Assembly (NCBI RefSeq): GCF_921293095.1
Contig: NC_060253.1
Location: 75,305,992-75,369,991, forward strand
Source: Ischnura elegans
Lineage: Eukaryota; Arthropoda; Insecta; Odonata; Coenagrionidae
Direction of reading: 5' to 3'
Length of the DNA stretch: 64,000 nt
Shown: positions 3,435-53,335 of the stretch, in pieces
Layout of the letters: every line of letters starts with the position of its first letter
Position numbering within the stretch: position 1 is the stretch's first letter
The notes under the pieces: model-generated
Seen by the model: the letters and a program-made list of their open reading frames with translations, nothing else
Told to the model about the DNA's origin: nothing
Database searches by the model: none
Made by a program: the position numbers and the translations under genes

Positions 3435-3695
3435 GAAGGATGCGAAGTTAGGCTTTTTTCGCCGGCGTTTCAGCTTCAAACTGTCGTCACGAAGATAACG
3501 CGGAGGACAACCGAGAAGAATAGCTGCGCCTACTGTACCATTTTGCGGAAGCCTTCATCAATAAATTGAAAGTATGGTAATCTTCAAGATGGCTCTCCAA
3601 TTGAAGTTTTTATTTCACCATCTCAACAAGCAACGTTTAAAAGTAATTGATCGATATCTAAAAGCACCGAATTATCGTGTATGGGTATTGCATAC

Positions 3696-3997
3696 CAGGG
3701 GCGCAGCTAGGAATTAAGGCTGGTGGGGGTTTAGGTGCAACTAATACCGGGGTCTGTGCTGGTATGGAATACCCACCAGGATAATCGGTAGGAGCGAGAT
3801 TAATAAATTGCGGAATTTTAAGATAAATGGTTCAAAATGGTGAGTTTTACGACTTTCTGAGGGATATTTTTTTATTAATCCTTACACTATTCTTTTAGTA
3901 ATACCAATCCAATCAAGTATGGATTAAGCTTAAAAAATTCTATAAGTTCTGGGAAGGGTTTTATCCCCCAAACCTCCCCCCCCTCGCTGCGCCACTT
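3696..3997 (+). mobile_element. hAT-like MITE family B, copy 2, with 8-bp TSD
   Basis: It begins caggggcgcagc and ends gctgcgccactt (last base altered). The exact target duplication ttgcatac lies at 3688-3695 and 3998-4005. The internal sequence is closely related to the copies at 1860, 8913, 12396 and 24383. Confidence 0.9.
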
Positions 3998-8912: not shown

Positions 8913-9214
8913 CAGGCGCGCAGCTAGAAATTAAGGCTCGGGGGATTTTAGGAGTAACTAATACGGGAGTATGGAATACGGGTGGTGCTGGTGCCTTCCC
9001 CCAGAAATTTTTTTATGAGAAATGGTTCAAAATGTTGAGTTTTACGGCTTTTTAAGGGATATTTTATTAATCCTTACACGATTCTGTAAGTAATATTTAT
9101 CCAATTAAGTAAAATGGATTAAATTTAAAATTTCTCCGAGTTGGGGGGGGGTTTATCCCCCAAAACATACAATGATAACATACATGATACATACTCCCCC
9201 TCGATACGCCACTG
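8913..9214 (+). mobile_element. hAT-like MITE family B, copy 3, with 8-bp TSD
   Basis: The ends are caggcgcgcagc and tacgccactg, with exact duplication acatagcc (8905-8912 and 9215-9222). Near the right end a short insertion rich in acatacatgata separates the C tract from the terminus, a private feature of this copy. Confidence 0.88.
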
Positions 9215-12395: not shown

Positions 12396-12957
12396 CTGGG
12401 GCGCAGCTAGGAATTAAGGCTAGGGGGGTTTCAGGCGCAACTAACACTGAGGGGTCAGGGGGTATGGCATACCTGCCAGGGTAAACGGGAGGTGCTGGGG
12501 AAAAAATAAAGATAAATGGTTCAAAACGGTGAGTTTTACGGACTTCTGAGGGATATTTTATTAATCCTCACACTATTCTATAAGCCAGTGGCGCAGCAAG
12601 GGGGGGTTTTGGGGGATAAACCCCCCCCCCGGAGCTCAAAGAAATTTTTAAGTTAAATCTATTTTACTTAATTAGATTAATATTACTTATGTAATAGTGT
12701 GAGGATTAATAAAATATCCCTCAGAAGGCCGTAAAACTCACCATTTTGAACCATTTATCTTAATTTTTCCGGCGGAAGCACGCCGCACCTCCCGCTTACC
12801 CTGGCAGGTGTGCAATACCCCCAAGCCCCCCCTAGCTTTAATTCCTGGCTGCGCCCCTGCTATAAGTATTATTAATTCAATTAAATAATGTAAATTAAAC
12901 TTTAAAAAATTCCTGAGCTCTGGGGTGGGTTTAATCCCCCAAATCGCTGTGCCACTG
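12396..12957 (+). mobile_element. hAT-like MITE family B, copy 4, split by another copy
   Basis: The outer element starts ctggggcgcagc and ends tgtgccactg, with exact duplication atctcagc (12388-12395 and 12958-12965). It is interrupted at 12586-12859 by a second, inverted copy of the same family. Removing the insert leaves an element of about the usual 290 bp. Confidence 0.9.
12586..12859 (-). mobile_element. hAT-like MITE family B, copy 5, nested and inverted
   Basis: It runs cagtggcgcagc to gctgcgcccctg on the plus strand, so it is reversed relative to its host copy. The flanking octamers ctataagc (12578-12585) and ctataagt (12860-12867) match at seven of eight bases. The insertion is therefore younger than the host copy. 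Confidence 0.9.
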
Positions 12958-12965
12958 ATCTCAGC

Positions 12966-13317
12966 AAGGTTCATGATTTCCGCTAGATGACTGAGCCAGA
13001 CATTTCTCACATCCGATCTGCGACTCGCTATGAGGGGCGACGATCGTTTGACGGCGGTCTCGACATCTCATAGACGGCCTTGCATGCGAATGCGTTCCGG
13101 AGAGAGGGAAAGTGGTGTGGGAGGAGGTTCAGTTGGGAATGGAACAACGAGCTCACAACGCGCGCGAAATGACGGTGGGGCAGATAAAACGGGTCCCTGA
13201 ATGCCTCCTCGCCGGATTGGTTGTGTCTGCCCCGACGGTTTGCGTGAGACGCAGAAACAGACCGTTTCAGTTGAAGCTGGGTGCGTAGTTTTCCGCGGCG
13301 TTGTCTAGATGACGTCT
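12966..13317. other. GC-rich flank of the large palindrome
   Basis: A GC-rich stretch bordering the palindrome. A 161-codon minus-strand frame (13028-13513) runs from here into the left arm. It has no family signature and half of it is arm sequence, so it is not called. The 12-mer tcagttgaagct at 13267-13278 recurs just beyond the right arm. Confidence 0.4.
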
Positions 13318-14311
13318 CCATGCTTCTGGGTTTCACCGCGTGGATTTTCTTTGCGACGACAGTTTCTCCGGTATTCCAACCGACGCACAGTGGTCCGAAA
13401 TCGGAAAAAGCCGGACAAAAGTCCAAAATGGCTTTTTTTGAGCTAGGGACCTGAAACTTGGCACAAATACTCACAAATGATGGTTGATTATGGATTTGTA
13501 TGCCATTTTTCATAATGTTGATCCGTTGTTGAGATACAGCAGCTCAAACATGACCAATTTTCAAAAACTCGCGCGAACTCGCTTTTCTCCGAAAATCTTT
13601 GAACTTAAGCAGGTGGTGTTGCAGTTGTATGATTTTTATGGAATAAAAAACACAATATTCCTTTGAAAAGTTGCTTTGGCTATGTTGTTCATGATTTTTG
13701 AAGATTTTGGTTCACATTTACATAGTTTTACAACACAAAATGGCGTACCCATTTTTCGCGTGAAATTTCAAATAAAGTAGACATTATCTTTCGTTTACGA
13801 AATATGGTAATCGGGAAATTTACATCACAGTGTGAAGTAGACATTTGTTAAGAATATTGCGAAGAAATCTTGGAAAAAAGTTTGCGACCACGGAAATGAG
13901 AGCGATTTTTCGATCGCGCATCAAGTCTGAGCTACGCCACGCGGGACTCTGAGGCTTGGTAACTGCGGGCGATTTATCAAGTTTTTTTCAGAATTGCTTC
14001 TTAAAAATCGCCATTTGAAGCATGGCACATAGTCAATATTGACATTAAACACTATTACCAAGATAATGGATCGATCGATTAACCGTGTAACGCATTACTC
14101 TAGTGAAGATGGTAAGGGTTAGATTTTTGTCCGTACCATTCTACGTTCACGAAGTATGCTTCGGATATTGAAGTATTGTTAAGAGATTCAGTTGGCATGC
14201 GAAATAAAGAGAGAAGTAAACAGCTTCTGGGAAAGGCAACTACCTATATTCTTTGTCCTTACCAGTAACTACCCTCCCTTTTCAACCCTAGCCGAGGAGG
14301 GTCGCGCGGAT
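13318..14311. repeat. left arm of the palindrome
   Basis: It pairs base for base with 16342-17269 from the inner edge out to 13384. The arm includes a 60-codon plus-strand frame (13484-13666) that reappears on the minus strand of the other arm (16987-17169). This reflects the duplication and does not indicate a gene. Confidence 0.9.
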
Positions 14312-14820
14312 AGTGGCGTTTTATGACCACGCAAGGCCTTTAAAGGCAAAGGTATGTAAAGGGTCCTTCAACACGGGTTTTTACTCTTTGATATCACCAT
14401 ACACTAGGAGAATGTTTGAAGGAGAAAGAAAAGATAATGATTTATCCTTTAATTTATAATTAAATATTATATTAAATTGGTAAATAAAGAGTTAAAATGA
14501 ATTTGTCAAATTTCACTTTTCATCCATCGTTATACAGCATACAAGAAACACGTTTGATTAATGCAAAAATCATTATGAAATCAAACACTTGCGTTTTTAA
14601 AGTTTGGAACCTGTTTTTTTAAATTCGTAGTGGAATATTTCAATAAAAAAACAATGTAGCATTAATGAATTACCAATCATTAGCTCTAAATCTTACGAAT
14701 TAATTTAATGCAGAGTTATGAACAGGAATATAAAGAGGATACATACTTCGGAATTCACCTTTTACTTCGCATTTTTATGAGATTTTACATTGTCTTTTTT
14801 CATTAACGGTAATTCAACTT

Positions 14821-15002
14821 TCAATCCCCGAATGAACTGTCGTCACTGATGTCTGAGTCCTCATCTTCAACATCATCCAAAATCTAGCAGATCTCTTAAA
14901 TCTTCAGCTCGGTCAGCTACTTTAGCTTGAGATACGGTATCTTCTAAGCTCAATGCCTTCTCTCTGTCTCCTCCTTGTTTGTCGTCACCTCGAGCCCCAA
15001 GT
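14821..15002 (-). pseudogene. degenerate coding remnant with acidic C-terminus
   Basis: Read on the minus strand, about 40 codons containing LEDTVSQAKVADRAEDLRD end in LLDFG near 14878. After a one-base frame change they continue as DDVEDEDSDISDDSSFGD and a stop at 14821-14823. Upstream there are further in-frame stops. Heptad-like spacing and an acidic tail suggest the end of a transposon protein, but I cannot name the family. It lies divergent to the plus-strand gene in the same loop. Confidence 0.4.
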
Positions 15003-15713
15003 GTGTTTGGCCTGCGTCTTTAGTCCTTAGCGTCCTTAGCGAAGGGGCCATGTGCCTCGCTCTGCATTTTTTTTTCTGGACAGCAATCAACGAATATAGG
15101 ATTCCATGTAAACAGTCAGCGTATATCAGGACCCCTTCGAGATATTTTCTCGTCTCTTGAGGGACCTTCTAAACCACTAGCTTCAGTCCACTAGAGTCAT
15201 TCAAGCTATGTGGTGTACTTTCAGGCAGTGTGCTGAAATTCTCATCGGGTGTACTTCCTGTGTGTGGTATTTTTTTTATAATTGGGGATCCTACGAAAAG
15301 GCAATAGTGTTGAAAAGCAAAAAAGTGACTCGGAAGTCTGTTTGTGTGTTAGTTTATAGTAAATTCATTGGTGGGGTGGATTTCAAGGCAAAGACGTACG
15401 TCAACTTGCAGTTTTATTTTGGAATCGGTGAAGAAAGGTCGTGTTTGTTGCCCTAGTGACGTGTCGTGCTCTAGTGCAATTCTGAAATTCATCTAGCCCA
15501 GTGATTTAGTTCGACCTTTATTGAATTATCACTAATAATTACTATCTATTCTCGGAGTTGGACGGAACTGTGATTTTCCAGCTTGAAAATTTTTAAGGTA
15601 AGTTCTACCAATTTCCATACCAAATATACGTGTGTTTGCCGACTTCTTAAACAATGTGTTATATCACTTTTAGATTGTCATCATGGCAATTATCATTTTG
15701 ATTTGTTTTCTAG

Positions 15714-16365
15714 GGTAGCAATGGATTCATGTCAAATAAATCTTTCTGAGTTGCATAATAAAATATTAGAAATGAAGAGTAAAACAACAGGCGAGAAAAA
15801 AATACTCTTACTGGATTTTTTGTCGCGGAGACTGAATGTCCAGAGCTATGAAGAAGCTGTTGATGGTCTCCGAGAATTTCTTAGGTTGGAATTTTGGCTA
15901 TATTACGAAAAATTATGGAACAAATGTTGCCGTATTAATAAACGATTTTTATTGCGAAGTAAGGAATGGCTCGCGGAGCCAATAATTATCCCTGAATCTG
16001 TCCGTCAATACTTTCCTGGTTCCTTAAAGGCAAAAGGTATGTATTATATTTACGTTATGTTTTGAACTTTTAAAGTAAATTTAATTTCTGAATATCTATA
16101 CTTATTCCATATGTAATGCATTTTATGTACCACTCTATATCCTACTATTATTGCTTTGTTAGGCTCATTAGGGCGGCCCGAGAAAGACTTTACTTCTTCG
16201 TGTTACAGATCTAAGAGAAGAAAAGTTCAGAACATAAAAAGTACTTCTTCAGTAGCTGAGCTGGCATTAGCCACCACCCTTGGTTTAAGGGAGGAAGGAA
16301 ATACTGCAGCCGCGGATTTAATAACGGAAGTTACTAAAACAATCCGCGCGACCCTCCTCGGCTAG
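15714..16365 (+). CDS. two-exon gene in palindrome loop (~172 aa, unrecognised, transposon-associated)
   Basis: The coding exons are 15721-16036 and 16163-16365, phase-consistent across a GTATGT donor and a TTAG acceptor. A 5' non-coding exon probably ends at 15597 (AAG before GTAAGT) and joins near 15714. The protein starts MDSCQINLSE and has a helical, charged middle containing EFWLYYEKLWNKCCR. A basic patch follows (GRPEKDFTSSCYRSKRRKVQ), then an alanine-rich helix (ELALATTLGLREEG). It resembles hypothetical proteins that I associate with repeats in arthropod and cnidarian genomes, but I cannot confirm this. The last codons (about IRATLLG) and the stop are supplied by the right arm, so the original C-terminus may be lost. 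Confidence 0.5.
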
Positions 16366-17370
16366 GGTTGAAAAGGGAGGGTAGTTACTGGTAAGGACAA
16401 AGAATATAGGTAGTTGCCTTTCCCAGAAGCTGTTTACTTCTCTCTTTATTTCGCATGCCAACTGAATCTCTTAACAATACTTCAATATCCGAAGCATACT
16501 TCGTGAACGTAGAATGGTACGGACAAAAATCTAACCCTTACCATCTTCACTAGAGTAATGCGTTACACGGTTAATCGATCGATCCATTATCTTGGTAATA
16601 GTGTTTAATGTCAATATTGACTATGTGCCATGCTTCAAATGGCGATTTTTAAGAAGCAATTCTGAAAAAAACTTGATAAATCGCCCGCAGTTACCAAGCC
16701 TCAGAGTCCCGCGTGGCGTAGCTCAGACTTGATGCGCGATCGAAAAATCGCTCTCATTTCCGTGGTCGCAAACTTTTTTCCAAGATTTCTTCGCAATATT
16801 CTTAACAAATGTCTACTTCACACTGTGATGTAAATTTCCCGATTACCATATTTCGTAAACGAAAGATAATGTCTACTTTATTTGAAATTTCACGCGAAAA
16901 ATGGGTACGCCATTTTGTGTTGTAAAACTATGTAAATGTGAACCAAAATCTTCAAAAATCATGAACAACATAGCCAAAGCAACTTTTCAAAGGAATATTG
17001 TGTTTTTTATTCCATAAAAATCATACAACTGCAACACCACCTGCTTAAGTTCAAAGATTTTCGGAGAAAAGCGAGTTCGCGCGAGTTTTTGAAAATTGGT
17101 CATGTTTGAGCTGCTGTATCTCAACAACAGATCAACATTATGAAAAATGGCATACAAATCCATAATCAACCATCATTTGTGAGTATTTGTGCCAAGTTTC
17201 AGGTCCCTAGCTCAAAAAAAGCCATTTTGGACTTTTGTCCGGCTTTTTCCGATTTCGGACCACTGTGCGACGTCTTCAGGTCGACCTGACGCCGCCGGTT
17301 GGAATACCGGAGAAACTGTCGTCGCAAAGAAAATCCACGCGGTGGAACCCAGAAGCATGGAGACATCATC
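16342..17370. repeat. right arm of the palindrome
   Basis: Inverted partner of 13318-14311. Relative to the left arm it has an extra segment of about 25 bases right after 17269 that contains the perfect palindrome tcaggtcgacctga. Homology then resumes to 17370. Confidence 0.9.
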
Positions 17371-17735
17371 AGTTGAAGCTTACATGCTTGATAGAACGAT
17401 GCTCAGTTGACGATTTTGGGATTTTTTTAATAGTATGTCATGACATGCTATAATTTTTTTCCTCAAATTCGATCCAACTTCGGCCTATAAATGCCAAGAT
17501 TTTATGTAAAATATATTTATATACTCCATTCTAACCGGGTCCATTGATAGATATCACAATTTTCGCCCGAAGAAAAGACTTGCTAATCCTACCTGATTAA
17601 TGCAACGAATTGGTCTATTATGCATTTGGTGCTCAGAGACATCAATTGCTTATCCTAGTGACACTTCATTTAATAAATCACATTTTCAACTAATGAATAG
17701 TCTATTCTCTAAAGGTGTGTTTGTACGATGCATTA
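17371..17735. other. gene-free interval
   Basis: Starts within the tcagttgaagct repeat (17369-17380). Otherwise AT-rich without recognised content. Confidence 0.35.
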
Positions 17736-17929: not shown

Positions 17930-18060
17930 TGTTTTCTCCGGCGTACAATGGCAATGAAGATTTCTCGAATCTCACACCGGGTTAGTTGAGTCCTCGAATC
18001 TCACACCGGGTTAGTGAGTCCTCGAATTTCCAAGCCGCGAGTGCATAGGAGGTGACTTGG
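17930..18060 (+). mobile_element. half of a hairpin element (family H) with short tandem repeat
   Basis: Tttctccggcgtac followed by aatgaagatttctcg matches the left part of the hairpin elements at 37049 and 43456. A unit of about 27 bp (cgaatctcacaccgggttag plus gagtcct) then occurs twice. The returning arm of the hairpin is absent. Confidence 0.4.
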
Positions 18061-24286: not shown

Positions 24287-24382
24287 AACAGTCGCTGAAT
24301 GGTACGAATGGTATGGAGGTAAAAGGCAATGATAGAAGACACTCATATTATTTACTAATCCCCTTTCACGCGGTACACTTAC

Positions 24383-24679
24383 CAGGGGCGCAGCTAGGAA
24401 TTAGGCTGGGGGGGTTTAGGCACAACTAATACTGGGGTGTCTGGGGGTGTGGAGTACCCGCCAGGGTTAGCGGGAGGTGCGGGGGCACTCCTTTAGAAAA
24501 GATAAAGGGTTCAAAATGGTGAGTTTTACGGCTTTCGGAGGGATATTTTTATTAATATATTCACTATTCTGTAAGTAATATTAATCCAATTAAGTAAAAT
24601 GGATTAAACTTTTAAAAATTTCTGAGCTCTAGGGGGGGGGGGTTTATCCCCCAAAACCCCCCCCCTCGCTGCGTCACTG
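24383..24679 (+). mobile_element. hAT-like MITE family B, copy 6, with 8-bp TSD
   Basis: The ends are caggggcgcagc and gctgcgtcactg. The octamers acacttac (24375-24382) and acacttat (24680-24687) match at seven of eight bases. Confidence 0.88.

Positions 24680-27904: not shown

Positions 27905-53335
<25,431 letters not shown>

Follow-up and report, generated by a model that had tools for sequence, protein, structure and literature searches.

We analysed a 64,000-nt stretch of Ischnura elegans DNA (contig NC_060253.1, positions 75,305,992 to 75,369,991; hereafter the window), in which two nested pairs of inverted arms surround a loop that carries the start of a predicted gene. A repeat search of the window gave inverted arms of 934 nt each at 13381-14314 and 16339-17272, and a second, separate inverted pair of 78 nt immediately outside them. 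Compared base by base, the 934-nt arms show three mismatches, at 13383/17270, 13524/17129, and 14312/16341; of these, 13383/17270 belongs to the CGACG duplication at the flanks, and 14312/16341 already falls in the loop, at its first base. The true terminal inverted repeats (TIRs) are 926 bp long with one mismatch (13524/17129) and zero gaps, and they bound an inner element of 3,882 bp with a loop of 2,030 bp. The length of the arms by itself excludes a chance origin of their match. An earlier note on this DNA had described 928 bp with one difference and no gaps, which corresponds to the 926-bp TIR plus two CG bases of the duplication that pair by accident. That observation is confirmed, and the interpretation given with it is mostly right. 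Transib elements are cut-and-paste transposons related to the antibody-gene recombinase RAG. On the strength of its ends and flanks, the element at 13386-17267 is most probably a non-autonomous DNA transposon of Transib-like type, of recent origin and with 926-bp TIRs, inserted at a CGACG site in an older palindrome.

Both ends of the inner element carry the same heptamer, followed by a nonamer-like block (Table 1). A 7/9 nonamer match at spacers of 20-23 bp is reached by 0.77% of 100,000 random window positions. In the window, CGNCGCACAGTGG is matched exactly at the element's two ends and nowhere else, and a search of the window for more ends of this kind, allowing up to three mismatches, gave 15 matches versus 13.08 expected by chance. 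The direct duplication CGACG starts exactly at the arm ends on both sides, and at this base composition a given match of 5 bp between the flanks would arise by chance with a probability of 0.0013. CGACG also fits the Transib target CGNCG, although this is one insertion only and CGNCG is present 77 times in the window.

The locus most likely consists of two nested inverted repeats, the inner element and an older outer palindrome that it split. The inner and outer arms are unlike in sequence, with 1/926 mismatches in the former versus 3/78 in the latter, and the 20 bp to the right of the insertion have no counterpart on the left side. When the flanks are joined with one CGACG, they fold as one hairpin whose loop is 4 nt (-162.5 kcal/mol; 214 bases, RNA parameters), and the core of the restored palindrome is 176 bp and near-perfect. 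Because joining the flanks in this way restores a palindrome, the outer arms appear to belong to an older, interrupted element. The inner element would have interrupted that palindrome, and the outer and inner arms are therefore unequally diverged. A single 4-kb palindrome spanning 13308-17370 is ruled out by the differing arm sequences, their differing divergence, and the direct duplication between them. The single palindrome over 13318-17370 proposed in the earlier note accordingly gives way to two nested pairs, with the inner element ending at 13386 and 17267.

The insertion point most likely lies 12.5 bp off the centre of the 176-bp palindrome, as judged from the rejoined flanks. Five CGNCG sites occur in the empty palindrome (offsets -39.5, -12.5, +9.5, +12.5, and +39.5), and one insertion at -12.5 among five such sites is no evidence of a preference for palindrome centres. 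Targeting of hairpins or cruciforms has reportedly been seen for RAG transposition in vitro. Target choice is not treated in the relevant parts of PMC2822523, a review that names RAG transposition. No target-site duplication is claimed for the outer palindrome. The sole exact match of at least 4 bp in the offsets tried, GTTG at 13300-13303 and 17372-17375, is set aside because it is unevenly placed about the palindrome, and the superfamily of the outer palindrome is thus not assigned.

Table 1. Features of the nested inverted repeats and of the predicted gene start (window positions; gene features are predictions)
Feature	Position	Strand	Remarks
Left half-arm of the older outer palindrome	13308-13385	+	96% inverted match to 17293-17370; includes the left target-site duplication as its last five bases
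Left target-site duplication, CGACG	13381-13385	.	Direct repeat with 17268-17272
Left TIR, 926 bp	13386-14311	+	1/926 mismatch versus the right TIR
Terminal heptamer CACAGTG, left end	13386-13392	+	Identical to the consensus recombination signal sequence (RSS) heptamer printed in PMC8289069
Nonamer-like ACAAAAGTC, left end	13415-13423	+	22-bp spacer after the heptamer; 7/9 to nonamer ACAAAAACC
Predicted 5' untranslated region intron	15598-15713	+	AAG/GTAAGT ... TTTTCTAG/G; donor after 15597, acceptor before 15714
Predicted exon, start codon at 15721	15714-16036	+	Open frame; splice join in frame
Predicted intron, GTATGT...TTAG	16037-16162	+	Joins in frame
Predicted last exon (GSLGRPEKDF...RSKRRK...)	16163-16365	+	Extends seven codons inside the right arm, up to a TAG stop
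Right TIR, 926 bp	16342-17267	-	Base-by-base comparison
Nonamer-like ACAAAAGTC block, right end	17230-17238	-	Within the matching part of the arm
Terminal heptamer CACAGTG, right end	17261-17267	-	Same heptamer
Right target-site duplication, CGACG	17268-17272	.	Direct repeat with 13381-13385
Outer palindrome, central stretch right of the insertion	17273-17292	+	Joined flanks fold as one hairpin
Right half-arm of the older outer palindrome	17293-17370	-	Inverted match, 3 mismatches

The gene model in the loop and its splice sites are predictions from the sequence alone. The predicted frame crosses into the right arm at 16342 and reaches its stop at 16363-16365. The earlier note had suggested a long-TIR transposon with its own spliced gene; the precise ends, the 5-bp duplication, and the predicted spliced coding start bear this out, except that the gene comprises a 5' part only. 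Because the longest stop-to-stop frame of the loop is 163 aa, this copy, judged by its reading frames, can neither accommodate a catalytic core nor encode a full transposase, which is expected of a non-autonomous copy. The coding start includes a GRPxKxF...RSKRRK motif that may resemble one in the N-terminal parts of insect Transib-like proteins. A degenerate form of this motif had no match in viral or in prokaryote contigs, and five stretches in viral contigs fit the pattern of the predicted protein with none confirmed; these collections are not eukaryotic, and both results carry little weight. A structure model of exon 1 (105 aa, no alignment) has five helices and is poor, with a mean predicted local distance difference test score (pLDDT) of 55.7 and a predicted template modelling score (pTM) of 0.40. 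A bacterial-type promoter scan of 15170-15720 gave 3 hits versus 1.4 expected; it is irrelevant to a eukaryotic gene and was not used. On the minus strand of the loop, peptide-like runs are present at 14821-15168 in two frames, with an acidic tail DDVEDEDSDISDDSSFGD, and these could possibly be an inverted 3' coding remnant. The two longer pieces had no Pfam match above threshold, the best being Coa1 below the cut-off (E 0.16).

The putative Transib membership draws on the ends and the duplication. CACAGTG is the consensus heptamer of V(D)J RSSs (PMC8289069), termini that begin with CAC and 5-bp duplications are typical of Transib and RAG-like transposons (PMC4411706, PMC7204232), and CGNCG is the preferred Transib insertion site (PMC4735498). 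The inner element has a 5-bp duplication, a CGNCG-type target, and CAC heptamer-like termini at both ends. It also has a nonamer-like block within the symmetric 20-22-bp spacing that a figure legend of PMC8355894 gives for the heptamer and nonamer-like blocks of Transib TIRs; such a block is a feature of some Transib families and does not define the group. The earlier note had not recognised the family, and from the ends and the duplication the element can now be placed as Transib-like, with no support from the protein.

Several results weigh against this placement. The 172-aa predicted product matched no Pfam family at E up to 10, and its sole match in PDB at E up to 10 was RAIDD (E 1.1), which we took as chance. 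The PDB set searched includes RAG1, RAG1L, and the DNA-mediated transposase 6pqn, probably that of Hztransib, as a search with a RAG1 segment showed. No further copy of the arm, the loop, or the outer arms was found in the window by blastn at E up to 1e-3. The 19-bp element end had no match in viral or in prokaryote contigs, where a eukaryotic element is hardly expected. According to PMC8289069, most Transib TIRs, including those of Hztransib, are heptamer-like with little or no nonamer likeness, and for this reason the nonamer-like block lends weak support. The 926-bp TIRs are long compared with the 13-bp identical TIRs that PMC4411706 calls analogous to known Transibs. In addition, the Hztransib duplication, GCTCG, falls outside CGNCG, so the target preference is not absolute.

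The absence of a demonstrated Transib match in the coding start also leaves room for a different family, namely a neighbouring cut-and-paste group (CACTA/EnSpm, Mirage, Chapaev and kin) or a hAT element with 5-bp duplications. According to PMC12730594, CAC...GTG ends are common to EnSpm, duplications in the wider clade range from 2 to 5 bp, and hAT families with 5-bp duplications exist. At this locus the 2 bp adjoining the ends match (CG and CG), and a 2-bp duplication would be possible by length alone. However, the 3-bp duplication given there for CACTA/EnSpm is not seen next to the CAC ends (ACG versus CGA), a 4-bp duplication is likewise unmatched (GACG versus CGAC), CGACG agrees with the Transib site CGNCG, and the heptamer and nonamer-like block with a 22-bp spacer agree with the Transib legend in PMC8355894. 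We consider such a family unlikely. Still less probable, to the point that we give it very little credence, is that the structure is an assembly fold-back or a chromosomal palindrome formed de novo instead of a transposon. Artefacts of this kind do resemble near-identical long inverted arms, but a fold-back predicts neither a 2,030-bp loop nor a 5-bp duplication at the arm ends, RSS-like termini, or flanks that rejoin as a palindrome.

A further explanation concerns the origin of the arms only, and it is a version of the Transib-like explanation rather than an exclusive alternative. Both termini of the element could be copies of one end of a short-TIR ancestor, produced when the gap left by excision was repaired aberrantly. 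An open reading frame is cut by the arm boundary at 16342, the minus-strand runs could be an inverted 3' coding remnant, and short TIRs are described as usual in PMC4411706, all of which would fit such a one-ended, fold-back derivative. However, the minus-strand runs are split between two frames and match no family above threshold, the same boundary would result from a plain internal deletion ending in a pre-existing long TIR, and long TIRs are reported for Hztransib (PMC1852546). We regard a one-ended origin as possible, though somewhat doubtful.

Among described systems, Hztransib of the moth Helicoverpa zea resembles the inner element in its long TIRs and 5-bp duplication. According to PMC1852546, it is 3,518 bp long, has 'long TIRs', and encodes a deduced protein of 489 aa; its cleavage is RAG-like and leaves a hairpin on the flanking DNA (PMC6941560). 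Long TIRs are therefore not new for the Transib group, having already been reported in Hztransib. The two elements, compared by their descriptions, differ in the protein (489 aa versus the truncated start here) and in the duplication (GCTCG versus CGACG). Transib elements in general share with the inner element the CAC heptamer ends, the 5-bp duplication, the CGNCG target, and, in some, the nonamer-like block; unlike them, this copy has no catalytic core, and its TIRs measure 926 bp versus the 13 bp that PMC4411706 calls analogous to known Transibs. ProtoRAG and RAGL transposons, as described, are similar in their CAC heptamer-like ends and 5-bp duplications, but they have paired RAG1L and RAG2L genes and ends of the type CACTATG or CACTWMC..., neither of which is seen in the inner element; no loop frame exceeds 163 aa, and the gene pair is absent. 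The Foldback-like elements Galileo and Tetris, as described, also have long inverted arms around a loop. Galileo, however, belongs to the P superfamily and has internally repetitive TIRs, whereas no direct repeats of at least 12 nt were found inside the arm here.

If the Transib-like placement is correct, a full-length relative elsewhere in the genome would supply the transposase in trans. The transposase would recognise the CACAGTG ends, excision would proceed by RAG-like nick-and-hairpin chemistry, and joining of the excised, mobile element to a 5-bp staggered target would leave CGACG on both sides. The copy studied here would retain only the transposase-like start of the gene, cut off at the right-arm boundary. 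It probably arose by loss of the remaining gene, either by a deletion within a long-TIR element or during copying of one end onto the other. The right arm starts where the frame is cut and therefore fits both an internal deletion into an existing long TIR and end copying. At 2.8e-9, 3.5e-9, and 1e-8 per site, the 1/926 mismatch corresponds to about 193,000, 154,000, and 54,000 generations, respectively, figures that come from one event and have a very wide error. The date refers only to the last time the arms were alike. The arms may recently have been one sequence, or they may be kept alike by conversion; a single locus is compatible with both. A more elaborate scenario, which we think very improbable as a whole, takes the element to be a fold-back Transib of one-ended origin and its arms to serve as a natural off-switch, and adds landing in a palindrome by hairpin or cruciform targeting. 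In that scenario, silencing of the parent family would come from a long hairpin RNA made by read-through transcription, and competition for transposon ends from the truncated N-terminal protein.

Other features of the window include repeats and open frames. A dispersed repeat family at about 12398-12957 has relatives at 1858-2171, 3692-3996, 8913-9166, and 24380-24679, with pieces 71-96% alike, and it contains internal inverted parts (83-bp arms at 12502-12584 and 12686-12768, 94%). This is probably the family of miniature inverted-repeat transposable elements in which the earlier note had seen many differences among nearby copies; the spread among the left-side pieces agrees with that remark. 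Two 28-nt direct repeats, 93% alike and spaced by 29, lie at 17959-18015. A 195-aa open frame on the minus strand at 51158-51742 matches Pfam DDE_Tnp_1_7 (E 1.1e-28), presumably a piggyBac-type transposase domain. Minus-strand open frames at 33190-35522 resemble, by eye, endonuclease/reverse transcriptase fragments of a long interspersed nuclear element (LINE) retrotransposon; none of the three tested matched Pfam at E up to 0.01. The plus-strand frame at 45934-46455, a probable exon of an alanine aminotransferase gene, is the only host gene recognised among six frames tested. Of its residues, 65 align to alanine aminotransferase 2 (PDB 3ihj, E 1.9e-19), and a Pfam search gave nothing at E up to 0.01. 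Searches of the window for RNA genes gave 0 tRNAs and 0 Rfam families at gathering score.

Taken by itself, this locus offers a modest lesson: a striking mirror-image structure can be one transposon nested in another palindromic element. It would also provide one natural target inside a palindrome. The machinery of V(D)J recombination descends from the Transib group. If confirmed, the element would add to this group young, structurally complete RSS-like ends with long symmetric arms.

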